From Arthrobacter sp. NIO-1057 (GTDB lineage: Bacteria; Actinomycetota; Actinomycetes; Actinomycetales; Micrococcaceae): a stretch of DNA of 64,000 nt. Positions 2,918 to 17,426 of the stretch are shown one piece after another. The DNA lies in the NCBI RefSeq assembly GCF_900094805.1, contig NZ_FMAT01000010.1, positions 1 to 64,000 on the forward strand. Reading direction: 5' to 3'. The notes beneath the pieces are model-generated. The model saw only the letters and a list, made by a program, of their open reading frames with translations. It was not told where the DNA came from and made no database searches. Within the stretch, counting starts at the first letter, position 1. Each line of letters begins with the position of its first letter. Both the position numbers and the translations under genes were made by a program.

Positions 2918-4570
2918 TTAATCGGATTGTAATGACAGTGTCGCGGCAGCTTTCTTGTTGGCCGCGAGCACTTCTTCCATATAAGGGGCACGGATCCGCG
3001 TGGATACGCGGGCATCAACCAGACACACGCCACGAGCACCGTCGGCCACCCATTGCGTGAGCCCTGTCATATCCGAGAGTTTCTCTACGCGGATACCTGT
3101 GGCACCCATGGACCTGGCGATGCCCGCAAAGTCGACGGTGGGGATCAGCATCGGGTCTTCGTGCAGGCCAATCGAACCATATTGATGGACTTCCGCTCCG
3201 TAGGCCGAGTCGTTGTAAATCACGATCACACCGCTGTCGATGGTGCGGATGATGGATTCGAGATCAGCCAACCCCATTAAGAACCCACCGTCTCCCGCAG
3301 CCAGAACAACCGTACGTCCTTGGGCTGCAGCACCGGCGCCCACCATCGAAGCGATCCCCAACCCAATCGACTGGTAAGCGGTACCCACACAGGTCAGCGA
3401 ACGTGCCCCGGTCGTCGACCAGTACATCGGTCCCCAACCAATAAAGTGTCCACCGTCCTGCACCAAGACTCGATTGGCCGGCAAAATCTTCTCTAATTCT
3501 GAAGCCACCCGACGCGGATCCAGCAGTCCGTCCTCGACCACATCTTCGCCGACCGGGCGGCTACGCAGATCACTGAGATCAAGTTCTGCACACCAATTGC
3601 TTTGTGCGTCCTTCACGGTATCCAGCAATTCTGCTGCGGCACTTTGGGCATCGGCGGTAGCGAAGTAGTCCACGCGAGCATTGGTGGCAGCCGTCCCCAG
3701 ATCAATCTGAATCAGTGTTGCCGACTGACTAATGAGCTCACCAAAGCGCATGGTGAACTGGTTCAAAGAAGCACCCAAAACCAATACGGTATCGGCCTGG
3801 GCGATGATGCGAGCATTGGCTTCGGTGGCAAAGCCCCCGGTAATACCCAGGTCGAACTCGTAGTCCAACAGGTCACGCGCCAACAAGGTTCCCGAGGTGG
3901 TGGCATCCAGCTTCTGCGCCAACGCCTTGACCTGTTCGGCGGCATCAATCGCACCACGGCCATAAAGAATATGGGTGCGCTGCGAAGCGTCGAGCTTCGC
4001 CACGATCTGAGCCAGCGCGGCGGACTCTAACCGTGGAGCTGCTGGCGCGCTAGCCAGAGAGCCAAACTCGGGAAGTTCTTCCGTCGACGCTTCGATTGCT
4101 GCCAGATCATAAGGAATAGCCAGAACCACCGGGGTTTGCTCGCGCAGTGCATGCGCTGCCGCTTCGAGAGCGATACTCCCCGGGGTGTGGCGGTCCACTA
4201 CATAGCGAGGCGCTCGAACTCCCGAATCGATGGCCGCTTGGTCCACGTCCCAGGCACGCAATCCGGTGCTGGGTGCATCCCCGGTGACAAAAAGTAGCGG
4301 AGTTTTAGCCGCTGCTGCTTCGGCCAGTGCAGTCACCGCGTTCGTGTAGCCAGCACCGTAGGTAGTGGTGGCGATGGCCAGTTTGTTCGCAATGCGGAAG
4401 TACGCATCGGCGGCCGACACCGCTGCCGACTCATGGCGGACCGCGGTGTAATCAAACCCCGCACGTACTGCGGCATCAAGGAAGTGTGCGTTGCCGTTTC
4501 CCATCAGTCCGAAGATCTGTGGAGCAACTGGTTTAAGGGCATGGGCAATGGCAGCGGAAACGCTAGACAT
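2918..4570 (-). CDS. Thiamine-diphosphate-dependent enzyme, acetolactate-synthase-like
   Basis: At 550 residues this has the three-domain length of the acetolactate synthase/benzoylformate decarboxylase superfamily. The N-terminal pyrimidine-binding domain carries the activating glutamate (RHES, Glu47). The central domain has a dinucleotide-fold remnant (ITGGFATEANARIIAQADTV), and the C-terminal pyrophosphate domain has the GDGGFLMGLADL...YNDSAYG metal/diphosphate motif. The FAD-specific segments of true acetolactate synthases are not obvious and no ilvN-like small subunit is adjacent, so biosynthesis of branched-chain amino acids is unlikely. The substrate, presumably a 2-oxo acid, cannot be told from sequence. 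The downstream partner is the secreted EEP-fold gene. Confidence 0.85.
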   Translation of the reverse strand: MSSVSAAIAHALKPVAPQIFGLMGNGNAHFLDAAVRAGFDYTAVRHESAAVSAADAYFRIANKLAIATTTYGAGYTNAVTALAEAAAAKTPLLFVTGDAPSTGLRAWDVDQAAIDSGVRAPRYVVDRHTPGSIALEAAAHALREQTPVVLAIPYDLAAIEASTEELPEFGSLASAPAAPRLESAALAQIVAKLDASQRTHILYGRGAIDAAEQVKALAQKLDATTSGTLLARDLLDYEFDLGITGGFATEANARIIAQADTVLVLGASLNQFTMRFGELISQSATLIQIDLGTAATNARVDYFATADAQSAAAELLDTVKDAQSNWCAELDLSDLRSRPVGEDVVEDGLLDPRRVASELEKILPANRVLVQDGGHFIGWGPMYWSTTGARSLTCVGTAYQSIGLGIASMVGAGAAAQGRTVVLAAGDGGFLMGLADLESIIRTIDSGVIVIYNDSAYGAEVHQYGSIGLHEDPMLIPTVDFAGIARSMGATGIRVEKLSDMTGLTQWVADGARGVCLVDARVSTRIRAPYMEEVLAANKKAAATLSLQSD

Positions 4571-6533: not shown

Positions 6534-7745
6534 TTATGAATCGTCGCCCAACTTCCGGGCTACGGCGTTAATAAACTCTGGAGTTCCCACTGGAGAGTTC
6601 TTACCAACCAAGAGGGTCAGATCTGGAGTCATTACCCCGTCGGACACTGTCTTGCGGATAGCATCATCGATAGCCCGGGCCGCACCCACCAGTTCGTTAT
6701 TCCCGTCCAAGGTTCCACGGTGCTCAAGTGCACGACCCCATGCGGCAATGGTGGCCACTGGGTTGGCGACGAGTTGTTCGCCACCACTCCATCGTTTGTA
6801 GTGTCTGGCGACGGTTCCATGGGCAGCCTCAAACAGGCAAGTTTTGCCATCTTCTCCGGCCAACACCGAGGCCATCAAACCTGGAGAGCCAAAACCTTGA
6901 GCGACAATATCCGCTTGCACATCACCGTCGTAGTTCTTCAGTGCCCATAAGAAACCACCAGAACTCTTGATTGCAAAGGCCACCATGTCATCGATCAGAC
7001 GGTGTTCGTAGCTGAGCCCAGCCTGGTCGAATAATGTTGCAAACTCACCCTGATAGACAGCTTCAAATGCATCAACAAATGCTCCATCGTATTCCTTGAG
7101 CACGGTGTACTTGGTAGAGAAATACAGAGGTAGCCCCAAACGCAGAGCCTGCCGGAAACAAGCCCGGGCGAAAGCCCTGATGGAATCGGTGTTGTTGTAC
7201 ATGCCCAGGGCCACACCGCCATCTGGTCCGAATGTTGCGACCTCTTGAATCACCGGTGTCGATCCGTCGGCAGGGGTGAAACTCAGTCGGAGACTTCCCG
7301 CGCCAGAAACTCTAAAGTCAGTCGCCTGATATTGATCGGCATTGGCATGCCGTGCAACAACAATGGGACGTTTCCAACCCGGCACGATCCGTGGCACGGC
7401 ATCTAACACTATGGGTTCGCGGAAGATCACCCCATTCAGAGCCTTGCGCAAGGTCGCATTCGGGGACTTCCAGCGTTGACTCAACCCATAACTCTGCACC
7501 TGCGCTGCGGTGGGTGTGATCGTTGAGCACTTCACCGCTACCTGATGCTCTTTCACTGCGGCAGCCGCCTGCAAGGTAATAGCATCGGCGGTAGCTTCCC
7601 TGTTGGATAGCGACAGGTCAAAGCTTCGAATGGGCACGTCGACGAAGGGCTTGATAATCCGTTCGCGCACCATCGTGAACATCTCGTTGGCGGCCTCGTC
7701 ACCGGTAATTTCGACGATCATCCCTGGTTCCCTGTCGTTTTTCAT
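6534..7745 (-). CDS. NADP-isocitrate dehydrogenase paralogue (eukaryotic-type dimeric family)
   Basis: Oxidative decarboxylation of isocitrate, or of a close analogue, to a 2-oxo acid with NADP. The 403-residue product aligns along the eukaryotic-type dimeric IDH: VAVKCSTITP, WKSPNATLRKALNG, the substrate arginines in IFREP and VARHANADQ, YEHRLIDDMVA and NYDGDVQAD for the metal aspartates, and AAHGTVARHYK for the NADP phosphate. Departures include SPNATLR for SPNGTIR, STKYTVLK for STKNTILK, and a diverged N-terminus (ITGDEAAN for MDGDEMTR). Its ATG overlaps the aconitase-like stop by 4 bp (ATGA), so both form an operon with a GntR-type operator. It is probably not the housekeeping TCA-cycle enzyme but part of a substrate-specific route. 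Confidence 0.85.
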   Translation of the reverse strand: MKNDREPGMIVEITGDEAANEMFTMVRERIIKPFVDVPIRSFDLSLSNREATADAITLQAAAAVKEHQVAVKCSTITPTAAQVQSYGLSQRWKSPNATLRKALNGVIFREPIVLDAVPRIVPGWKRPIVVARHANADQYQATDFRVSGAGSLRLSFTPADGSTPVIQEVATFGPDGGVALGMYNNTDSIRAFARACFRQALRLGLPLYFSTKYTVLKEYDGAFVDAFEAVYQGEFATLFDQAGLSYEHRLIDDMVAFAIKSSGGFLWALKNYDGDVQADIVAQGFGSPGLMASVLAGEDGKTCLFEAAHGTVARHYKRWSGGEQLVANPVATIAAWGRALEHRGTLDGNNELVGAARAIDDAIRKTVSDGVMTPDLTLLVGKNSPVGTPEFINAVARKLGDDS

Positions 7746-10390
7746 CGAGCAACCTCTCGGAATTGAGCCTGAGTCTTCTCCAACAAGTGCGGGATGACTC
7801 CGCCGGCCCGCAGCAAGGTCAGGTCTAGTTCAGTTTCAGCAGCTAAACGAGCCTCAAATTCTAAGTCTTCCCCGTCGCAGACTTCGACCTTTACCGGAAC
7901 CATCCCGCGTACTTTGATGGTCAACGGTTCCACCGAAATTTCGATTCGGTCCCAGGCCCTGACCTGCTGTAAGCGTGCCTTGACATGTTCAGGCACCAGC
8001 AAGGGAACCACCCCCATACCGATCAGATTAGAGCGGTGAATTCGCTCGAAACTGCCAGCCAGCACCGCACGCACTCCAAGCAAGCGCTGCGCTTTGGCGG
8101 CCCAGTCGCGCGAACTACCGGTTCCGTAACGTTCTCCGGCGATGACTACAGTGCTTTGCCCCTGATCTCGGTATCTGCTGGCAGCCTCCGTCAGCGGAAC
8201 CACTTCCCCGGTTCCCGCGTGCACGGTATGCGCCACCGGCAATCCCTCGCCAAGTTTGTTGACCAAGTTCTTGGCGTGGAAACCTCCGCGCACCATCACT
8301 TCAAAATTGCCTCGGCGGGAAGCGAAGACGTTGAGGTCATCACGGCTCTCTCCGCGTGAGACCAGGTAGTCTGCCACGAGTGAATCAGCAGGGATCGCAC
8401 TGGCTGGCGAGATGTGGTCCGTGGTGACGTCATCGCCGAGTACGAGCAATGGATGGGCGACAAATGTCCCGAGCTGGCTTCCCTCGTCCAACGCGGCAAA
8501 AGGTGGACGGCGCAGAATATTGGAGTCTTCGCTCCACTGGAACTGGGCACCACTGGGCGCATCCAGTTTTGACCACAAGGGACTGGTAGTGGCGATTCTG
8601 AAGTCACGTGCGAAGTCCTGAGCATCATGGCCCAGCTCCCACACCGCCTGCACTTCCTCACGGGTGGGTAATAAGTCGGCAAGTTTAACGGCTTTACCGT
8701 CAGCTTGTTCCGGCACGAATTCATAGGTCAATAGGTCGATGTCGGCCCGCCCAACGAGAGCAAAGGCCACCACCAACGGCGGCGAGACCAAGAACCCTAA
8801 ATCCAGCTCCGGATGGATACGTCCGGCAAAATTTCGGTTTCCCGAGAGAACCGCTACGGGTCTGACCGTGGATGAAGTTAGTTCCTGGCTGATTTCTTCG
8901 CTCAGTGGTCCGGAGTTGCCGATACAGGTGGTGCAGCCAAAGCCGACCACGTCGAATCCGGCGTACCCAAGATCTTCAAGAAGTCCTGCCCTGCGGAGGT
9001 AGCTCATGGCCGCCGGGGAACCCGGTGCCAGCGAAGTTTTCACCCAGTCTGGAACTTTTAGTCCGTGCTCTCGTGCTTTGCGAGCGACGAGTCCGGCGGC
9101 GATCAGCAGTTTAGGGTCGGTGGTATTGGTACAGCTAGTAATCGCGGCAATAGCAATAGCGAATCGAGGCAATTCTCCAGCGTCTTCAGCAACATCTTGT
9201 GCTTCGTTTTCTAAGGCTTGCGGAATCTGGGATACCTCCATCAAATCCTGCGGGCGTCGCGGACCAGCCGCACTTAAACGCACCTGGGCCAAATCCAGCT
9301 GAAGAATATCGGTATATTCTGGCTGAGCTTGGGGGTCAAACCACAAGCCTGCCGCCTGATAGTAATCCTGAACCAACCGAAGCTGATCGACGGGACGCCC
9401 GGTTTGCTTCAAGTAATCAATAACCTGCTGATCCACCGGGAAATACCCGGTGCTAGCCCCATATTCTGGTGCCATATTCGCAACCACCGCTCGCTCTCCC
9501 GCGGACAGCTGGCTAACACCGGGACCGAAGAATTCAACAAATTCTCCGCTGACCGCCCGTTCACGCAGAAGGTGTGTAACGGTCAGCGCCAGATCGGTAG
9601 CCGTAGCTCCTGCCGGCAACTTGCCAGTCAGTTGGAAACCAATAACGTCTGGGATGCGCAAAGTCGTGGGCAGACCGAACATCACCGTCTGGGCTTCGAG
9701 CCCCCCAACGCCCCAGCCGAGCACCCCAAGCCCGTTAACCATCGGGGTATGTGAATCGGTGCCGATCATCATGTCAGGGACGACCAAAGGGTGGGTTAGA
9801 TCTTCAGAACGTTCAAGGTCCAGATGCGCCACGGTAGCCAATTGCTCCAGATTCAGCGTATGCATGATCCCGGTGCCGGGCGGGTTGACGTTAACCGTTT
9901 CCATTGACTCTTGGGCCCATTTCAGGAATCTATAACGCTCTTGGTTTCTCCGATATTCATGTGCCAGATTGCGTGGAGCAGCGTCACTACGCCCGTAGTC
10001 TTCCACGGCCAGCGAGTGGTCGATGGACACCTCAACGTGTAACTGCGGATTCAGCACGCCGGGGTCGATGCCTATCTCGGCCAATGAATCACGCATGGCG
10101 GCAATATCGACCAGGGCTGGGGTGCTCGTGGTGTCATGCATCAAGATGCGATGTGGCCAGTATTCGAGTTCTGCTTCGGAAGTGTGTTTCTGCAACCAAT
10201 CTTTGAGATTGGCTACGGTTCTTGCGCTTTCTTCCGCACTGGAACGGCGCAAGGTATTTTCGGCTAACAGCCTGAGAACGACGGGGAGACGGCTAAATTC
10301 TGCGCCCAGGATCGTTCTAATATCGGTGGCCGAAAAGCTGGCGCCGCCTGACTCGAAAGTTGTGATGCGCCGTTGGCTCAGTGAAGGCAT
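7742..10390 (-). CDS. Aconitase-family hydratase (AcnA/AcnD-like paralogue)
   Basis: 4Fe-4S hydro-lyase that isomerises or dehydrates a citrate-type tricarboxylate. The 882-residue product has the full aconitase layout: an IGTDSHTPMVNGLGVLGWGVGG core, cluster cysteines in AITSCTNTTDP and GFGCTTCIGNSGPL, NRNFAGRIHP, the swivel domain with DDVTTDHISPASAI, SRRGNFEVMVRGGF, YGTGSSRDWAAKA, and SNLIGMGVVPLL. Some signatures are those of housekeeping AcnA, but RILMHD near the N-terminus and NRNFxGRIHP recall AcnD, the 2-methylcitrate dehydratase. GNFEVMVRGGF replaces the usual GNHEVMMRGTF. It is first gene of a two-gene operon with the IDH paralogue, divergent from an MFS carrier. Citrate is possible; an unusual tricarboxylate is equally plausible. 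Confidence 0.85.
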   Translation of the reverse strand: MPSLSQRRITTFESGGASFSATDIRTILGAEFSRLPVVLRLLAENTLRRSSAEESARTVANLKDWLQKHTSEAELEYWPHRILMHDTTSTPALVDIAAMRDSLAEIGIDPGVLNPQLHVEVSIDHSLAVEDYGRSDAAPRNLAHEYRRNQERYRFLKWAQESMETVNVNPPGTGIMHTLNLEQLATVAHLDLERSEDLTHPLVVPDMMIGTDSHTPMVNGLGVLGWGVGGLEAQTVMFGLPTTLRIPDVIGFQLTGKLPAGATATDLALTVTHLLRERAVSGEFVEFFGPGVSQLSAGERAVVANMAPEYGASTGYFPVDQQVIDYLKQTGRPVDQLRLVQDYYQAAGLWFDPQAQPEYTDILQLDLAQVRLSAAGPRRPQDLMEVSQIPQALENEAQDVAEDAGELPRFAIAIAAITSCTNTTDPKLLIAAGLVARKAREHGLKVPDWVKTSLAPGSPAAMSYLRRAGLLEDLGYAGFDVVGFGCTTCIGNSGPLSEEISQELTSSTVRPVAVLSGNRNFAGRIHPELDLGFLVSPPLVVAFALVGRADIDLLTYEFVPEQADGKAVKLADLLPTREEVQAVWELGHDAQDFARDFRIATTSPLWSKLDAPSGAQFQWSEDSNILRRPPFAALDEGSQLGTFVAHPLLVLGDDVTTDHISPASAIPADSLVADYLVSRGESRDDLNVFASRRGNFEVMVRGGFHAKNLVNKLGEGLPVAHTVHAGTGEVVPLTEAASRYRDQGQSTVVIAGERYGTGSSRDWAAKAQRLLGVRAVLAGSFERIHRSNLIGMGVVPLLVPEHVKARLQQVRAWDRIEISVEPLTIKVRGMVPVKVEVCDGEDLEFEARLAAETELDLTLLRAGGVIPHLLEKTQAQFREVAR

Positions 10391-10407
10391 GCGCCTCTCC
10401 CCTCAGT

Positions 10408-10453
10408 TTTTATAATTTATAAAATCGTACACCACGTCTTTCTGCATAGTCCA
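10408..10453 (-). promoter_or_regulatory. Promoter and palindromic operator A of the acn-icd operon
   Basis: A perfect 17-base palindrome TTTTATAATTTATAAAA lies at 10408-10424, 18 bp upstream of the aconitase-like start. On the minus strand TGGACT (10453-10448), an 18-base spacer and TACGAT (10429-10424) give a start point inside the palindrome. The same motif recurs at 10594 and 13926, so it is taken as the binding site of the GntR/FCD protein at 13154. Repression by blocking the start point is inferred. Confidence 0.65.
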
Positions 10454-10556
10454 TATGCGGCAAAGCATCTAATCAGAGACTGATAGTTCATCATCGTGTT
10501 GCCCGTCGGACCCCGTCGCTTGCGAAATCAACTCGCCGAAAGTGAGCGTCAGGGCG

Positions 10557-10608
10557 TTGACATGACCCATGACACACTCCTAGGCTACCCAATGTTATAA
10601 ATTATAAA
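10557..10608 (+). promoter_or_regulatory. Promoter and operator B of the MFS-lactonase-GntR operon
   Basis: TTGACA (10557-10562), an 18-base spacer and TAGGCT (10581-10586), followed by GTTATAAATTATAAA at 10594-10608, the operator motif again overlapping the predicted start. The spacer reads CATGACCCATGACACA, close to the CATGATCTGGGTCACA found at the same place in the tctC promoter and partly like a CRP/GlxR site (TGTGA-N6-TCACA). Confidence 0.6.
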
Positions 10609-10630
10609 TACCTACAGTTTTGGAGCCACC

Positions 10631-12016
10631 ATGAGCACCTCGCCCAATGTGGTCGAGTCGGCGCAGTTCGAGAAACGAACCGTCCGCAAGATCACCGGAC
10701 GCATCATTCCCTTCGTTTTTCTCCTCTACATCGTCAACTACATCGACCGGGCCAATATTGGCTACGCCTCACTGCATATGAACGCCGAGCTGGGACTAAC
10801 CAGCCAAGCTTTCGGCTTCGCCGCAGGATTGTTCTTTATTGGCTACTTCCTCTTTGAGGTTCCAAGTAACGTTGCACTGGCAAAATTTGGGGCGAGAGTT
10901 TGGATTGCGCGCATCCTTCTAACCTGGGGCGTGCTGGCCGTACTCATGGGATTCGTGCAAAACGATCTCCAGCTGTTCATCATTCGATTTCTCCTAGGCG
11001 TGGCCGAAGCCGGATTCTTCCCAGGCATTATCGTGTACCTGAGCTTCTGGTTCCGCTCAAAAGACCTCGTCACCGCCACCTCATTATTCGTGGCCTCCAT
11101 CCCCGTCTCGTACATCATCGCTTCACCGCTCAGCACCCTGATCATGGAAACTGTCAATTGGTTTGGTCTTAGCGGTTGGCGCTGGATGTTCATTCTCGAA
11201 GGATTCCCCGCCGTACTACTAGGGATCGCATGTTTCTTCGTCCTGACAGGATCACCAGCGGAAGCCAAATGGCTTAGTACCGAAGAACGCAACTGGCTGG
11301 TCTCAGAGCTCAAAGCCGAGCGCGAAGCAGCCTCCGAACATACCCAGCACCTCAGCTTGTTCAAGACCCTGGCCAACAAGAAGGTTCTCTACCTGGGCAT
11401 CATCTATTTTGTGTATCAGGTAGGAAGCCTCGGTGTGGGTTACTGGCTGCCACAAATCATCAAGTCATTGGCGGATACGCTCACCGCGATGCAAATTGGT
11501 CTCATCGGCATGGTTCCGTACATAGTTGCCACCATCGCAATGATCTGGTGGGGACGCCACTCCGATCAAAAGGCCGAGCGAAAACTGCATTGCTACCTAC
11601 CCATGGGTGTTGCCGCCATAGCAATGTTCGCCGCAGCGATTTTCGAATCTCCCGTCCTAGTCATTTCGTCGATCACCATTGCCCTCGCCGGACTCTACGC
11701 ATTCAAATCACCCTTCTGGGCGGTACCCGGCCAGTTCCTCTCTGCAGCCACCGCAGGAACAGCTGTTGCGGCCATCAACTCCATCGGGAACCTCGGAGGC
11801 TTCGTCGGCCCTTACGCCCAGGGAATCATGATGGACGTTGTGGATGACCCACGGGCCGGCCTGTACCTGTTCGGGTTCCTTCTAGTTCTTTCCACCACGA
11901 TGATGTTTCTGATTAAACTTCCAGCAACGAGTAAAAGAGGTGGCGTTCGAGTCACCGCTACAGGGCACGGAATACCCCCCACGACTTCCGGTTCAGGAAA
12001 GGTAGAGAGCAAATGA
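10631..12016 (+). CDS. MFS transporter, anion:cation symporter (ACS) family
   Basis: Inner-membrane carrier of 461 residues with twelve predicted hydrophobic segments. The ACS-type signature is seen at the N-terminus (RIIPFVFLLYIVNYIDRANIG, around residues 25-45), with FFIGYFLFEVPSN and RFLLGVAEAGFFPGIIVYLS following. The family transports organic anions such as tartrate, phthalate, glucarate and other carboxylates by proton symport. It heads a plus-strand operon and overlaps the lactonase gene by 4 bp (ATGA), so carrier and lactonase are probably made together. Its control region is shared with the divergent aconitase-like operon. The substrate is probably a carboxylate or its lactone; which one is not visible. 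Confidence 0.88.
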   Translation: MSTSPNVVESAQFEKRTVRKITGRIIPFVFLLYIVNYIDRANIGYASLHMNAELGLTSQAFGFAAGLFFIGYFLFEVPSNVALAKFGARVWIARILLTWGVLAVLMGFVQNDLQLFIIRFLLGVAEAGFFPGIIVYLSFWFRSKDLVTATSLFVASIPVSYIIASPLSTLIMETVNWFGLSGWRWMFILEGFPAVLLGIACFFVLTGSPAEAKWLSTEERNWLVSELKAEREAASEHTQHLSLFKTLANKKVLYLGIIYFVYQVGSLGVGYWLPQIIKSLADTLTAMQIGLIGMVPYIVATIAMIWWGRHSDQKAERKLHCYLPMGVAAIAMFAAAIFESPVLVISSITIALAGLYAFKSPFWAVPGQFLSAATAGTAVAAINSIGNLGGFVGPYAQGIMMDVVDDPRAGLYLFGFLLVLSTTMMFLIKLPATSKRGGVRVTATGHGIPPTTSGSGKVESK

Positions 12017-13089
12017 TCCAAAGCTTCGCCTACGTGGGCACCCGCACCACTAAACGACGTGGTCACGGCAAGGGAATCTACGTGTATCAGGTTCATGACG
12101 AGCACCAATGGAATCTAATCCAAACGGTCCCCGCGGTGAATCCCGGATTCCTCGCGGTGAATGAAACAAACAGTGTTCTCTACGCTGCCAGTGGCGATCA
12201 TGATTACCTGACCACATACAAGATAGGTGACGACGGACGACTCGACGAACTAGGACGAACCCCCAGTGGTGGAATCAATCCTGCGCACATCACGCTGGAC
12301 CCCACCGGGAAATGGCTGTTGGCCGTCAACCACAACTCTGGCTCGCTCGTAGCTTTCCCCATTAAACCAGACGGTTCACTAGGCTCTGAGTCCTCTCGCA
12401 TTGATTTCACCGGTGAGCCCGGACCACATCGCACCGACCAAACCGGTGCTAAGCCACACCATATAGTCTTCAGTCCTGATGGGCAGTGGATCGCGATTCC
12501 GGACAAGGGTCTAGATCTCGTTCACCTGTGCCACCTCGACCCGGTGGATGGCAGGCTGTCCCAGTCTGATTCTGTGCCATCGACGAGCATGTCTGGACCG
12601 AGACACGCTGTCTTTGGCAACGACTCAACGCTTTATGTGCTCAACGAATTATCCAATACCGTTGGATGCTACGTTCGCGATCAGGATACTACTCAATGGT
12701 CGCTGATCCAGCTGCTACCCACGATGCCAGATACCGATCCCCGTGACTCGAGAGCCGCGGAAATTCTCATTACTCATGATGGCACCAGGGTACTAGCGAC
12801 AAATCGCAGTGGCGCCGGTGACCACACACCCGGTGGTCCCAGAGCAGATACCCTTGCCTGCTTCAGAGTCCAAAAGGACGGCTACTTGAAACTGGACTCT
12901 CATATTTCGGCCGCGGATATCCGCCCCCGTTTCGCGATTCAGTCACCAGACGGCCAAATTCTGGTTGCTAACGAAAAATCGGATCAAATCCTCAACCTTG
13001 GCCCCGTCGATTCGCCCACTAGCTCCCGAGTTATTGTTAACGTTCCCTCACCGGTTTGCGTCGTCTTAGCCAAAGGCTACCATTTATAA
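12013..13089 (+). CDS. Seven-bladed beta-propeller lactonase family protein
   Basis: The 358-residue product has the repeating blade pattern of the 6-phosphogluconolactonase/carboxymuconate-cyclase family: LDPTGKWLLAVNHNSGSLVAFPI, PHHIVFSPDGQWIAIPDKGLD, PRHAVFGNDSTLYVLNELSNTV, and RPRFAIQSPDGQILVANEKS. Such proteins hydrolyse or form lactones in the cytoplasm. There is no signal peptide. Translation is coupled to the upstream MFS gene. The pentose-phosphate role is unlikely here because the neighbours are a carboxylate carrier, a tricarboxylate transporter and aconitase/IDH paralogues; opening a tricarboxylate lactone would fit better. That substrate is inference only. Confidence 0.8.
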   Translation: MIQSFAYVGTRTTKRRGHGKGIYVYQVHDEHQWNLIQTVPAVNPGFLAVNETNSVLYAASGDHDYLTTYKIGDDGRLDELGRTPSGGINPAHITLDPTGKWLLAVNHNSGSLVAFPIKPDGSLGSESSRIDFTGEPGPHRTDQTGAKPHHIVFSPDGQWIAIPDKGLDLVHLCHLDPVDGRLSQSDSVPSTSMSGPRHAVFGNDSTLYVLNELSNTVGCYVRDQDTTQWSLIQLLPTMPDTDPRDSRAAEILITHDGTRVLATNRSGAGDHTPGGPRADTLACFRVQKDGYLKLDSHISAADIRPRFAIQSPDGQILVANEKSDQILNLGPVDSPTSSRVIVNVPSPVCVVLAKGYHL

Positions 13090-13153
13090 AAAGGATGTTG
13101 CACTTTGTAAGATTCTCTAACCTTATTCCTCGACCGCCCGAAAGAGATCGCTC

Positions 13154-13822
13154 GTGAGCCAAGCTGCGCTGACTAAAAACGCCTACGCCTATCAGAGCGT
13201 CAGGGAGCTGATCATGAGCGGTGAACTGCCACCAGGTGAAGCCTTGGCGCAGTCACAGCTCGCAGCCGATCTTGGCGTCAGCCTCACGCCCATGCGCGAA
13301 GCCTTGCGCAAGTTGGAAGCCGAAGGTTTGATTACCATCGACGCCCACCGCAACGCCAAGGTTGCCCCGCTGACCGCTCAGGAGGCCACCAACCTCTTTC
13401 AGGTGCGTGAACGACTAGATCCCATGGCGGCAGCGTTGGCCGCCACCCACCGCACCGATCACGATATTCTGCGAATGAAGGCCGCAGCCGAAAAAATGCG
13501 TCCACTGGCCCCAAATCCAGACCTCACTTCTCTGGCTGCACACCGCGAATTCCATCGGTCGATCTACACCGCTTCACATAACGACCTGTTGATCAACATG
13601 CTTGAATCCTTGTGGGATAAGGCTGATCGGTACCGTCAAGTCGGTCTGTCTGCCCGTCAGGACTCTGCTGCGGACAAGAAACGCGTGGCCGCTGAACACG
13701 AACGTATCCTCAAAGCAGTTATCGCTGGCAACGCTGCCAAAGCCGAAGAGGAAATGACCAAGCACGTTCAGGGCAGCCTAGGTCGCCGAGCCATCGACGC
13801 GTTGGATTCTAGAACTTCCTAA
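13154..13822 (+). CDS. GntR-family transcriptional regulator (FCD/FadR subfamily)
   Basis: A 222-residue DNA-binding regulator starting at GTG. The N-terminal winged helix (residues 10-75) shows the GntR pattern AYQSVRELIMSGELPPGEALAQSQLAADLGVSLTPMREALRKLEAEGLI. The C-terminal FCD all-helical domain (about 85-215) has the metal/ligand histidine pattern (HREFHRSI, AEHERILKAVIAGNAAKAEEEMTKHVQ). FCD proteins usually sense carboxylic acids. It closes the MFS-lactonase operon and is followed by a terminator. The three AT-rich palindromes at 10408, 10594 and 13926 are its likely operators, making it the local repressor relieved by a tricarboxylate or a pathway intermediate. Confidence 0.85.
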   Translation: MSQAALTKNAYAYQSVRELIMSGELPPGEALAQSQLAADLGVSLTPMREALRKLEAEGLITIDAHRNAKVAPLTAQEATNLFQVRERLDPMAAALAATHRTDHDILRMKAAAEKMRPLAPNPDLTSLAAHREFHRSIYTASHNDLLINMLESLWDKADRYRQVGLSARQDSAADKKRVAAEHERILKAVIAGNAAKAEEEMTKHVQGSLGRRAIDALDSRTS

Positions 13823-13837
13823 CTTCGAACCACCACT

Positions 13838-13874
13838 AATGCCCCCAGTATTTTGCTTGCCGGGGGCATTTTCT
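13838..13874 (+). terminator. Intrinsic terminator after the GntR gene
   Basis: AATGCCCCC (13838-13846) pairs with GGGGGCATT (13862-13870) and is followed by T residues. It separates the MFS-lactonase-GntR transcript from the tctC promoter. Confidence 0.8.
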
Positions 13875-13891
13875 GCATCCACGACCAGCAC

Positions 13892-13940
13892 TTGACATGA
13901 TCTGGGTCACAACTTATGGTCATTAACTATAATTTATAAT
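13892..13940 (+). promoter_or_regulatory. Promoter and operator C of the tct operon
   Basis: TTGACA (13892-13897), exactly 17 bases, TATGGT (13915-13920), then ACTATAATTTATAAT at 13926-13940, the third copy of the palindromic operator, again covering the predicted start. The spacer holds CATGATCTGGGTCACA, similar to the promoter at 10557 and to half of a CRP/GlxR site. Confidence 0.65.
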
Positions 13941-13987
13941 TTGTAATATCCAACAGCGCCTCATCACTCGGGCGCGAAAGGATCACC

Positions 13988-15010
13988 ATGACTCTTAAAA
14001 ACACACGTACCCTAAAACCCCTATCAAGCCCCTTGCGCAAAATCCTTCGCACGACAGCCATCGTGGCCAGCGTTGCCGTGGTCGCCGGGGCAACATTTAA
14101 CGCGGCCAGCAGTGGCAACGGCGATGATGCCCGAGCACAGCTAACCCTCATTGCCCCGGCGGGCGCAGGGGGAGGTTGGGATGGTGCAGCCCGCGAAGCC
14201 CAGCAGGCCATGCGCGCACAATCCATCGTCAACAATGCGCAGGTCGTCAACATCCCTGGAGCCGGCGGCACCATTGGCCTGAATAAATTCGCCGGAATGG
14301 ATGGTGAAAAATCCAGCCTCATGGTCATGGGAATTACGATGCTCGGCGCCATTAACATCAACGGTTCGCAAACCACCATCCAAGATGTCACCCCGATCGC
14401 CCGGATCACCGATGACTACGATGTCCTGGTTGTTCCGGCCGACTCCCCCTATAACTCGGTGGACGAATTGCTCACCGATTGGGGTAAAGATCCCAACTCC
14501 TTCGCTTTCGGCGGCGGTTCGCTGGGCAGCGTCGACCAGATGATCGTCACTCAGTTAGCTCAACACGCGGGCATCCAACCCACCGCGGTGAACTACATCG
14601 CCTACTCAGGTGGCGGAGAACTGGCCACCAGCCTGCTGAGCGGGACCATCAAAGCTTCAGTATCCGGGTGGGTAGACTTCGCCGATCAGATCGAAGCCGG
14701 AAAGCTCAAAGCCCTAGCCGTATCCGCCCCCGAACCGGTTCCAGCCACCGGAGTATCCACACTCAAGGAACTCGGATACGACATCGAGCTGACCAACTGG
14801 CGCGGCATCGTCGCCCCACCGGGACTCAGCGATCAAAACATCAAAGAGCTCCAACAGATCGTCACCGAAACCGTCAATACACCGCAATGGGCCGATGCCC
14901 TAGAACGCAACCAATGGGCCGATACCTTCTTGACCGGACCAGAATTTGAAGAATTCCTTGAATCTGAGCGACAAAGCGTCGACGCCATTTGGAATGACCT
15001 GGGCTACTAA
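13988..15010 (+). CDS. tctC: Tripartite tricarboxylate transporter substrate-binding protein
   Basis: Extracytoplasmic solute receptor of a TctABC system. The 340-residue product has a long basic N-terminus followed by a hydrophobic export segment (about residues 22-40, TTAIVASVAVVAGATFNAA), then the TctC fold: LTLIAPAGAGGGWDGAAR, the ligand loop VVNIPGAGGTIGLNKFA, PADSPYNSVDELL, FAFGGGSLGSVDQM, YIAYSGGGELATSLLSG and LTNWRGIVAPPGLSD. No lipobox cysteine is evident, so it may be anchored by an uncleaved signal or released. It is the first gene of tctC-usp-tctB-tctA and has its own promoter with the GntR-type operator. Known ligands of the family are citrate and other carboxylates; the ligand here is unknown. 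Confidence 0.92.
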   Translation: MTLKNTRTLKPLSSPLRKILRTTAIVASVAVVAGATFNAASSGNGDDARAQLTLIAPAGAGGGWDGAAREAQQAMRAQSIVNNAQVVNIPGAGGTIGLNKFAGMDGEKSSLMVMGITMLGAININGSQTTIQDVTPIARITDDYDVLVVPADSPYNSVDELLTDWGKDPNSFAFGGGSLGSVDQMIVTQLAQHAGIQPTAVNYIAYSGGGELATSLLSGTIKASVSGWVDFADQIEAGKLKALAVSAPEPVPATGVSTLKELGYDIELTNWRGIVAPPGLSDQNIKELQQIVTETVNTPQWADALERNQWADTFLTGPEFEEFLESERQSVDAIWNDLGY

Positions 15011-15032
15011 CCACCAAGAAACTGGAGACACC

Positions 15033-15410
15033 ATGACCACATTGGTCGGATACACCCACACCGCCGAGGGCGCCGCCGCCCTGCGGCACGCTCTGAGCCT
15101 TGCCGAGCTAACCAACCACGAAGTTGCACTCTTTCCGCTCTTTGATCTCAACGGCGAGACTTGGCCGAGCACGGAGCTCACCACGAATTTGCAGGGCAAA
15201 GCCCGCTTCCTACAGCCCCGGGCCAACTCACCGCGCGCCGCGGAGGAACTGATCGATCTGAGCAATGAACTCGACGCGCAGTTGATCGTCATCGGGGTTC
15301 GGTCCCGATCGCGGGTAGGGAAAATGCTCATGGGCTCCGATGCCCAAGCAGTAATCCTCGGGGCCAGCGTCCCGGTGCTGAGTGTAAAGGCCGGCGATCA
15401 TGAGCACTGA
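15033..15410 (+). CDS. Universal stress protein (UspA family) within the tct operon
   Basis: The 125-residue cytoplasmic protein starts at the ATG at 15033, preceded by CTGGAG. It shows the Usp fold: LVGYTHTAEGAAALRHALSLAE at the first strand/helix, DAQLIVIGVRSRSRVGKMLMGSDAQAVILGASVPVLSV at the C-terminus. The latter matches the ATP-binding G-x-x-G-x(9)-G-S/T region only partly (RSRVGKMLMGSDAQAVI). It lies between tctC and tctB and overlaps tctB by 11 bp, so it is translationally coupled to the transporter. Usp domains are known to regulate some transporters; a regulatory role for TctAB is inference. Confidence 0.85.
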   Translation: MTTLVGYTHTAEGAAALRHALSLAELTNHEVALFPLFDLNGETWPSTELTTNLQGKARFLQPRANSPRAAEELIDLSNELDAQLIVIGVRSRSRVGKMLMGSDAQAVILGASVPVLSVKAGDHEH

Positions 15411-15921
15411 AACTTCACATAGCGCACCTCCCCAGTCGGCCTTCGGCACCGGGCGCAGTGGTCTAGTCTTGCCAGCCATCCTATTGCTGCTAGGTATCTA
15501 CCTGAGCATCGGTATTATCACCATGGAGGTCCCGGACGGGGCTAAACAGCCTGGCCCAAAGTTTTTTCCGATCCTGATCACCATTGCGATTTTCATTCTC
15601 GCGGCGCTGTTGAGCATGCAATTACTGCGGAATCCGGAACCGGTCCCCGACGATCGTCAGGGATACCGCAGTTATTCAGACTGGAAAACCGTGGCCCTGG
15701 TCGCCGCTGGTTTCTTAGCTTTTGCCCTGCTCTTGGTTCCCGCCGGGTGGCTGATTAGCGCCAGCTTGCTGTTTTGGACTGTAGCTTTTGCGCTGGGAAG
15801 TAAGAACTGGGCCCAAGTACTGGCCATCGCCGTGGTTTTCGCCTCCGTTATCCAATTGGCCTTCGGAGCGGCACTCGGCCTAAACCTGCCTAGCGGCATC
15901 TTGGAAGGACTGATCGGCTAA
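15400..15921 (+). CDS. tctB: Tripartite tricarboxylate transporter small membrane subunit
   Basis: The 173-residue protein has four hydrophobic segments (about residues 20-42, 57-75, 98-118 and 123-165), matching the small TctB subunit, with the family-typical PGPKFFPILITIAI stretch after the first segment. It overlaps the Usp gene upstream and its stop shares one base with the tctA start (TAATG), indicating coupled translation and a stoichiometric complex with TctA in the cytoplasmic membrane. Confidence 0.88.
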   Translation: MSTETSHSAPPQSAFGTGRSGLVLPAILLLLGIYLSIGIITMEVPDGAKQPGPKFFPILITIAIFILAALLSMQLLRNPEPVPDDRQGYRSYSDWKTVALVAAGFLAFALLLVPAGWLISASLLFWTVAFALGSKNWAQVLAIAVVFASVIQLAFGAALGLNLPSGILEGLIG

Positions 15922-17426
15922 TGGAATCTCTCACCTTACTTCTTGAAGGTTTTTCCCAGGCCCTGACCCCGATGAACCTGCTCTGGGTGTTCATTGGAGC
16001 TTTCCTTGGCACTGCCGTAGGCGTCTTGCCTGGTCTGGGTTCCTCCATGGCGGTGGCCCTGCTACTACCGATGACTTTTTCGCTGGACCCGGTCGGCGCC
16101 TTCATCATGTTTGCCGGCGTGTATTTTGGCGGGCTTTTTGGTGATTCCACCATGGGTATCTTGATGAATACTCCCGGTGGTTCCACGGCCATCGCTACCA
16201 CCTTTGAAGGCCATCGCATGGCTAAAGATGGGCGAGCACCTCAAGCGCTGGCCACCAGCGCCATCGGCGCTTTCATTGGCGGTATGATCGCCACCACACT
16301 CGTGGTATTTTCTGCCCCTAAGTTGGCGGGAATCGCGGTGGTTTTTGGGCCAGCCGAGTACTTTGCCTTAGCGGTTTTCGCGTTTATCGCCACCGCTTCG
16401 GTGGTTTCCGACTCGGCGTTGAAGGGTTTGGCCTCGCTTCTGGTGGGTCTGGCCTTGGCGGTGGTGGGCATCGACGGAATTTCCGGCGCTTCTCGCTTCA
16501 CCGCGAATGTACCTCAGCTCTTTGATGGGGTCAGCATCATCGTGATTACCGTGGGCGTATTAGCATTGGGCGAAGTACTGCATGTGGCCTCGCGTATTCA
16601 CCGTGATGAGAAGCTGACGGCCATTTCCGTTTCTGGCCGGCCCTACCTGTCCCGTTCCGAAGTGCGCGAAGCGATCCCTGCTTGGTTGCGTGGCACCGCT
16701 TTCGGCGTGCCCTTCGGTGTGATCCCTGTCGGTGGCGCCGAAGTGCCGACCTTCTTGGCTTGCGGCACCGAACGCCAGTTGGACCGCAAACGGCGTACCC
16801 CCAAGTTCGGCACCGGTGCGATCCGCGGTGTGGCTGCCCCGGAAGCTGCCGGCAATGCCACCAGCGGTACCGCCATGGGTGCGCTTCTGGCCTTGGGGTT
16901 GCCCACCTCTGCCACGGCCGCCATCATGCTCGCCGCCTTCCAACAATATGGATTGCAGCCAGGTCCCATGCTTTTTGAACGCAATGCGGACCTGGTCTGG
17001 GCGCTGTTGGCCTCGCTCTTTATCGGCCTCGTGATGTTGTTGGGACTGAATCTGCCCTTTGCACCGCTCTGGGCCAAGCTTTTGCTGATTCCCAAGCCGT
17101 ACCTGTTCGCAGGTATCACCGTCTTCTGCGGCCTGGGCGTGTACGCCACCGGCGCCTCGGTGGTCGACCTACTGCTAGTACTGGTGATCGGCTTCATCGC
17201 ATTTCTGATGCGCCGTTACGGTTACCCACTGGCACCGGTGATGATCGGCGTGGTGCTCGGTCCGTTGGCCGAAACGAGCCTGCGCAATGCGCTGATGTCC
17301 AGTGGCGGTGAACTCTCGATCTTGGTCGGTTCGGCGATCACCATCGTGCTGTACGCCCTGTTGGTCGCGATGATTGGCTACACCCTGTGGCGCCGGGTCG
17401 CTTCCCGACGCCGCCAGGACGTATAG
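15921..17426 (+). CDS. tctA: Tripartite tricarboxylate transporter large membrane subunit
   Basis: The 501-residue polytopic protein is the ion-coupled permease of the TctABC uptake system. Family hallmarks are visible: GVLPGLGSSMAVALLLPMTF near residue 35, YFGGLFGDSTMGILMNTPGGSTAIATTFEGHRMAKDG, PFGVIPVGGAEVPTFLACGTER, the repeat motif AAPEAAGNATSGTAMGALLALGLPTSATAAIMLAAF, and MRRYGYPLAPVMIGVVLGPLAE near the C-terminus. It is the last gene of the operon. Its stop codon directly abuts the stop of the convergent amine-oxidase gene, with no room for a terminator between them. Confidence 0.93.
   Translation: MESLTLLLEGFSQALTPMNLLWVFIGAFLGTAVGVLPGLGSSMAVALLLPMTFSLDPVGAFIMFAGVYFGGLFGDSTMGILMNTPGGSTAIATTFEGHRMAKDGRAPQALATSAIGAFIGGMIATTLVVFSAPKLAGIAVVFGPAEYFALAVFAFIATASVVSDSALKGLASLLVGLALAVVGIDGISGASRFTANVPQLFDGVSIIVITVGVLALGEVLHVASRIHRDEKLTAISVSGRPYLSRSEVREAIPAWLRGTAFGVPFGVIPVGGAEVPTFLACGTERQLDRKRRTPKFGTGAIRGVAAPEAAGNATSGTAMGALLALGLPTSATAAIMLAAFQQYGLQPGPMLFERNADLVWALLASLFIGLVMLLGLNLPFAPLWAKLLLIPKPYLFAGITVFCGLGVYATGASVVDLLLVLVIGFIAFLMRRYGYPLAPVMIGVVLGPLAETSLRNALMSSGGELSILVGSAITIVLYALLVAMIGYTLWRRVASRRRQDV

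Follow-up and report, generated by a model that had tools for sequence, protein, structure and literature searches.

A GntR-type regulon of Arthrobacter sp. NIO-1057 with its own aconitase and isocitrate dehydrogenase paralogues, probably serving a tricarboxylate other than plain citrate

Why does an Arthrobacter genome keep an aconitase gene and an isocitrate dehydrogenase gene side by side with tricarboxylate importers, a lactonase and a regulator? The question is raised by a locus in the first 64,000 nucleotides of contig NZ_FMAT01000010.1 of Arthrobacter sp. NIO-1057 (the whole stretch of DNA analysed here, which we call the window). Gene families, paralogy, operators, a clade signature and recurrent linkage can all be observed directly in these sequences, and we propose, with a probability of about 0.6, that GntR controls at this locus a catabolic regulon whose substrate, a tricarboxylate other than plain citrate, occurs partly as a lactone.

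On the minus strand, the gene of an NADP-type isocitrate dehydrogenase (IDH) paralogue of the eukaryotic type (6534..7745, 403 aa; TIGR00127, PRK08299) overlaps by 4 bases with that of an aconitase-clade hydratase, Acn (7742..10390, 882 aa; PF00330, PF00694, PRK12881), in which His85 and Thr178 replace Gln. Divergently from acn-idh, on the plus strand, run the genes of a carrier of the major facilitator superfamily (MFS; 10631..12016; PF07690, with TIGR00893 and HpaX as the nearest named models, both under their cut-offs), a seven-bladed beta-propeller lactonase (12013..13089; PF10282, 233.8 bits) and a GntR/FCD regulator (13154..13822; PF00392, PF07729). They are followed on the same strand by the genes of the substrate-binding protein TctC (13988..15010; PF03401), a universal-stress-type protein, Usp, within the tct operon (15033..15410, the ATG at 15033 being the likely start; PF00582), the small membrane subunit TctB (15400..15921; PF07331) and the large membrane subunit TctA (15921..17426; PF01970, 461.5 bits), so that the tripartite tricarboxylate transporter set is complete by Pfam. 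An earlier note, made from the letters of this DNA alone, had described the same gene content and order, which our Pfam scan of ten window proteins confirms.

Could Acn and IDH simply be the tricarboxylic acid (TCA) cycle enzymes of their host? The idea of the earlier note would have fallen had the genome held no other acn or icd gene, and both were found. In the 3.54 Mb host assembly (13 contigs, 100% complete), contig C3 carries a second aconitase, 43% identical to Acn, and contig C4 a monomeric IDH (1283.5 bits); a third aconitase-family gene on C3 is LeuC-sized. The presence of this separate aconitase and monomeric IDH rules out the window genes as plain TCA enzymes and supports the view that they are extra, co-regulated paralogues beside tricarboxylate importers. 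Contig C4 also holds a second TctCBA set (L061 3835-10469; TctA 65% identical to that of the window), close to genes for an aldehyde dehydrogenase and for a member of the IDH family whose closest model is the isopropylmalate/isohomocitrate one. Genes related to that of this IDH-family enzyme lie 1.2 kb from acn in Ensifer adhaerens (58% identical; L198) and 2.1 kb from it in genome G508 (60%; L095), a proximity to the Acn clade that hints at a linked second pathway.

The promoters of the locus carry a common palindrome, TTATAAWTTATAA. It is exact in the predicted operators of acn (10410..10422, kept in relatives) and of the MFS-lactonase-GntR operon (10595..10607), and a predicted operator pair before tctC (13927..13946) consists of two overlapping copies, at 13927 and 13934, with one mismatch each. 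A motif scan allowing up to two mismatches found four matches in the 64 kb, all at these three promoters, against 0.11 expected, and none of 100 shuffles reached four; the claim that one palindrome marks all three transcript starts was thus borne out. The sites lie 19 bases from the start of acn, 23 from that of the MFS gene and 41-48 from that of tctC, positions at which a bound repressor could block transcription, and the GntR/FCD protein is likely to be the repressor or sensor of the regulon. The palindrome includes TATAAT and could in part be a promoter box. Among the IDH-bearing relatives, a similar site (up to three mismatches) stands 5' of acn in 8/8 and at the separate tctC promoter in 5/5; the GntR gene's own promoter, in loci where this gene lies behind tctA, has one in 0/3. 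The site has two mismatches in L094 and four in L095. In G186, inspection of the sequence by eye shows similar sites both at acn/GntR and ahead of MFS-lactonase, so that acn and the lactonase operon seem to share one regulon in two genomes, the host and G186.

Is Acn itself an ordinary aconitase? It scores 1141.9 bits against PRK12881 (cut-off 905) and 907.5 bits against the AcnA equivalog TIGR01341, under the cut-off of 945, which two other members of its clade narrowly pass (Ramlibacter, 952.4; Bosea, 961.5). The clade has an SH-aLRT support of 100 and is 38-46% identical to other AcnA and AcnD proteins. We aligned its 44 intact members, leaving out the interrupted acn of G105, with ten other AcnA-type proteins, one AcnD and the AcnA of Priestia. 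His85 (codon 10136..10138, minus strand), at the position of the active-site Gln of ordinary aconitases, is His in 44/44 clade members, in AcnD and in Priestia AcnA, and in the other AcnA proteins the residue is Gln (9/10) or Pro (1/10). It aligns with the Gln of LMQDFTG in E. coli AcnA, which precedes a conserved Asp and which we take to be Gln72 of mitochondrial aconitase (mAcn), a substrate-recognition residue. Thr178 (codon 9857..9859, minus strand), one residue past a conserved catalytic-site His that presumably corresponds to mAcn His147, is likewise found in all 44 clade members, and is Gln in all ten other AcnA proteins, AcnD and Priestia AcnA. Within NRNFxGR, the clade has Pro (37), Ala (5) or Thr (2), the ten others and Priestia have Glu, and AcnD has Asp. 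The Fe-S cysteines and the DH, DSH, NRN, TTDH and SSRDW motifs, which we take to be the catalytic motifs of aconitase, are kept in the clade members of a further alignment. In a quick tree with long branches, Priestia AcnA falls among the ordinary AcnA proteins, one of which joins it with a support of 99, and the Priestia His therefore seems to be a separate change.

Acn was also compared with AcnD of the AcnD/PrpF 2-methylcitrate pathway, and an assignment to AcnD was rejected (TIGR02333, 670.2 bits for a cut-off of 1419.85). The two are alike in that AcnD, too, is a hydratase of the aconitase family and has His at this position; its substrate is a 2-substituted citrate, and it dehydrates 2-methylcitrate to a product argued to be 4-methyl-cis-aconitate (PMC5690661). 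Unlike AcnD, the window protein falls in a clade of its own and is paired with an IDH and a lactonase, and no PrpF family was detected among the ten neighbouring window proteins scanned.

The Acn clade is rare, and it also occurs in Proteobacteria, partly on large plasmids. It was found in 17/390 sampled Micrococcaceae genomes (9/32 genera), in 3/396 sampled genomes of the host's order, host included, and, at 63% identity or more, in 4/300 genomes of the order of Ramlibacter, Ramlibacter included; a pattern-limited search of the species collection named eight genomes (Ramlibacter, Caenimonas, a Neisseria metagenome-assembled genome (MAG), three Bosea and two Rhizobiales bacteria). Plasmid records matching Acn at E <= 1e-250 numbered 43, mostly from rhizobia; we examined 16 of these loci (14 from the 25 best, and those of Roseomonas and Rhizobium CB3171 through the MFS search), and the remaining 27 were placed in the clade by score alone. 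The constant unit in the 17 Micrococcaceae carriers is acn with a GntR regulator in the same stretch (17/17), and tct genes are present in the stretch of 13. Directly 3' of acn lies an IDH gene in nine of these carriers, an RraA gene in three and neither in five; over all 44 loci, IDH is beside acn in nine. The Usp gene of the tct operon is kept in 8/8 IDH-bearing relatives, and the host's arrangement of acn-idh, GntR and Tct is repeated in its nearest relatives, G142 and G254, whose Acn is 87-88% identical. Two more loci came to light in this survey: in G105 (L180 169-6775), acn is broken by a stop codon and its neighbours resemble, by eye, glyoxylate carboligase, tartronate semialdehyde reductase and hydroxypyruvate isomerase, and G1009 (L117 2681-17961) packs three aconitase-family genes, PrpF, several TctC and a protein resembling SBP_bac_3 into 16 kb.

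Does the lactonase belong to the system? The window lactonase scores 99.3 bits against the 6-phosphogluconolactonase model PRK11028, under its cut-off of 370, and is 50% identical to the lactonase of G186 and 34% to those of L009 and L116; the MFS carrier is 69% identical to its counterpart in the acn cluster of G186, 60% to that of the Neisseria MAG and 58-59% to those of four plasmid acn loci. When all 44 loci were searched again with a single query set, 13 proved to have a lactonase, or what remains of one, no more than 4.4 kb from acn (PF10282 in 12, SMP-30/SGL in G966); zero or one main gene separates the two in 11 of these, and two (GntR and MFS) do so in G186. G030 has the MFS and lactonase genes as fragments only, on the far side of tct. 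The eight loci with an MFS carrier at least 50% identical to that of the window all have a lactonase too. Conversely, when plasmids were searched with the lactonase of Neisseria, 19 records matched at E <= 1e-60; in all nine that are at least 49% identical to it (Comamonas, Variovorax, two Paraburkholderia, a Comamonadaceae isolate, Roseomonas and three Rhizobium), a gene of the 43-record acn set lies within 1.7 kb of the lactonase gene. The Priestia lactonase (46% identical to that of Neisseria) adjoins its own His-bearing AcnA. The share of loci with a lactonase, 7/16 at the plasmid loci examined, is biased; a count by position that takes in all 43 records gives 9/43. The MFS and lactonase genes are thus optional, yet clustered with acn in G186 and several Proteobacteria. 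The search for co-occurrence that the earlier note had called for therefore ties a lactonase subfamily to the Acn clade in several bacterial groups, and reduces the constant part, in the Micrococcaceae carriers, to acn and GntR. PF10282 genes are scarce, with two in the host genome and none in G142; the second host lactonase (contig C6, L132 7129-8193) has a motif, GSRTTKERNARGEG, common to some acn-linked lactonases, and neighbours that by eye look like transporter, cupin, aldehyde dehydrogenase and GntR-like genes.

The IDH exceeds the cut-offs of both TIGR00127 (480.5 bits; 397.15) and PRK08299 (510.1 bits; 335). All nine cluster IDHs keep, in an alignment, what we take to be the isocitrate- and NADP-binding residues of the human enzyme, and the product of Acn should for that reason resemble isocitrate or oxalosuccinate. 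The copies of this IDH at eight other Micrococcaceae loci (51-57% identical) are solitary, with no acn or Tct neighbours. RraA-type proteins form an aldolase/oxaloacetate decarboxylase family in which two motifs exist (PMC5065237). The acn-adjacent RraA of three Micrococcaceae resembles the common RraA of that family of bacteria and reads G-X20-R-D-X2-E, a change of D to G relative to the D-X20-R-D seen in 8/8 free RraAs of this type that were examined; neither motif is present in two free copies that are more distant (G254 C1:1942147 and G030 C8). The second of the motifs is quoted here in its presumed form. Two further cases and the differing motif have partly restored the value of RraA beside acn as evidence. 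On a Priestia megaterium plasmid (L189 5944-16655), one stretch brings together genes for an Ldh-family enzyme, a citrate:H+ symporter, an IDH-family enzyme, an MFS carrier, RraA, LysR, AcnA, a lactonase and a second symporter. Another recurrent partner is a cytosolic SBP_bac_3-like protein of about 240 residues, encoded within 8 kb of acn in 11/44 loci (L008 12649-13368, L009 7963-8703, L095 11970-12683 and eight more; assigned by Pfam for four) and represented in the host by two weak matches only. Its identification as an aconitate isomerase is unsupported, as cyclohexadienyl dehydratases appear, beside many binding proteins, among the structures that it matches; it is possibly an uncharacterised enzyme built on a binding-protein fold.

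What might the regulon degrade? From the gene families and their linkage we infer transport, each enzymatic step and its order, the inducer and the substrate. TctCBA would import the open acid, and the MFS carrier would take up either the acid or the lactone, the latter to be opened by the propeller lactonase; the altered Acn would isomerise or dehydrate the acid, and the NADP-dependent IDH paralogue would carry out the oxidative decarboxylation of the Acn product or the decarboxylation of an oxalosuccinate-type product. Binding of the inducer to the GntR/FCD protein would free the palindromes at the three promoters. Citrate and aconitate form no stable lactones, so that a lactonase would imply a tricarboxylate whose chain is longer or bears a second hydroxyl, and the His common to the Acn clade and AcnD may, by analogy, point to a substituent on the citrate arm. 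Because 2-hydroxycitrate (garcinia or hibiscus acid and their lactones) would fit both, we tentatively favour it as the specific substrate, passed from the lactonase to the modified aconitase and on to IDH and/or an RraA-type lyase. In one route, dehydration of hydroxycitrate would give the enol of oxalosuccinate, and IDH or an RraA-type decarboxylase would convert this to 2-oxoglutarate; in another, hydroxycitrate would become hydroxy-isocitrate and, through IDH, hydroxy-2-oxoglutarate, which an RraA-type aldolase would cleave to pyruvate and glyoxylate. If so, the hydroxycitrate-converting activity of Micrococcus would be due to an enzyme of the Acn clade, and the His at the Gln72 position in the clade, AcnD and Priestia AcnA would mark the acceptance of 2-substituted citrates. 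The earlier note's idea that an unusual tricarboxylate, or the lactone of one, has a route of its own is strengthened by paralogy and by the lactonase-acn linkage, the substrate being deduced; among the candidates listed there, hydroxycitrate or its lactone is, in our view, the best fit. That note knew of no described system with such content, and we found none in the open-access literature, which omits most subscription papers; nor did that literature yield anything direct on the active-site Gln or on bacterial genes for hydroxycitrate use.

Several observations weigh against a regulon for a lactone-forming tricarboxylate other than plain citrate. The specificity of TctC is not readable from its sequence, and the role in substrate binding of the residue at the Gln72 position is assumed here. 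In 31/44 loci, no lactonase lies within 8 kb of acn (or up to the end of shorter stretches), and the lactonase loci are not all independent (for example those of P. sabiae and P. phymatum). Nine other plasmid lactonase records (38-48% identical) fall outside the 43 acn records; two of these nine strains, both Sinorhizobium americanum, have an Acn-clade gene on another plasmid. The G142 and G254 loci have neither MFS nor lactonase, and since both share the rest of the layout, the MFS-lactonase pair between operator and GntR was either gained in the window lineage or lost in these two. RraA is not beside acn in the window, and the Priestia RraA carries the ordinary D-X20-R-D motif. Several rhizobial loci consist of TctCBA-GntR-acn only, which is compatible with any tricarboxylate, and the window IDH, to go by its retained isocitrate-binding residues, may act on plain isocitrate. 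These last two points also speak for inducible scavenging of citrate, isocitrate or aconitate, in which TctCBA would import TCA acids and the extra Acn and IDH would raise flux or resist inhibition (e.g. by trans-aconitate); a PrpF gene within 7 kb of acn in 2/44 loci is what aconitate isomerisation would predict. We nevertheless regard such scavenging as unlikely, given the clade-wide His and Thr changes, a specific lactonase linkage with no obvious role in plain citrate use and the lack of a PrpF-like protein in the scan of ten window proteins, other isomerase families being possible.

Two further explanations take the lactonase into account. Isocitrate readily forms a gamma-lactone, and in a pathway for isocitrate or alloisocitrate lactone, the MFS carrier and lactonase would supply isocitrate to an IDH whose residues are intact, with Acn handling co-imported citrate and aconitate. 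Acn would be superfluous for isocitrate, yet acn is the gene that defined the loci and IDH the optional one, which makes this explanation improbable. Still less probable, and indeed hardly to be expected, is the catabolism of homocitrate lactone, in which Acn would be a homoaconitase and the IDH-type enzyme, working as a homoisocitrate dehydrogenase, would yield 2-oxoadipate. Homocitrate forms a lactone and is produced in legume nodules, rhizobia are numerous among the plasmid carriers, and the host homologue of the Ensifer IDH-family enzyme scores best, though under the cut-off, on the isopropylmalate/isohomocitrate model; however, the window IDH keeps the residues presumed to contact the gamma-carboxylate of isocitrate, RraA would have no role, and the plasmid collection is probably biased towards rhizobial megaplasmids.

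Returning to the proposed regulon, it shares parts with several known systems. Like TctCBA operons, the window has TctC, TctB and TctA, and to our knowledge the known operons of this type come without their own aconitase and IDH. The tarRAB system for trans-aconitate assimilation in Bacillus is similar in that an MFS importer and a regulator serve a TCA side acid that feeds the TCA cycle, and different in that it relies on an aconitate isomerase (PMC11495376), whereas the window cluster has Acn, IDH, lactonase and Tct. No aconitate isomerase was recognised among the cluster proteins scanned with Pfam, a search for PrpF or TarA not being extended to the rest of the genome. A review cites a hydroxycitrate-converting enzyme of Micrococcus (112 kDa, Km 0.35 mM) as an activity only (PMC4945632). 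Conversion of hydroxycitrate to 2-oxoglutarate would be expected of an aconitase-like dehydratase followed by IDH decarboxylation; Micrococcus belongs to the bacterial family of the host, a good fit but a link by name only.

Two more features were noted in the window. The start of the contig (window 3-346) is about 88-93% identical to stretches of several Arthrobacter-type plasmids and is probably a repeat where the assembly broke, and a thiamine-pyrophosphate enzyme gene (window 2918-4570) is kept near the locus in both same-genus relatives (L046, L047).

If our proposal is true, the locus would provide genes for an activity so far cited only biochemically, together with enzymes acting on a commercially interesting plant acid, hydroxycitrate, and an aconitase clade annotated automatically as plain AcnA would act on another substrate. 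The locus would also be a warning that the acnA copies of soil and symbiont genomes, some of them on large plasmids, need not be TCA cycle enzymes, and the lactonase, RraA and IDH-family enzymes that recur around altered aconitases make up a short, testable parts list.

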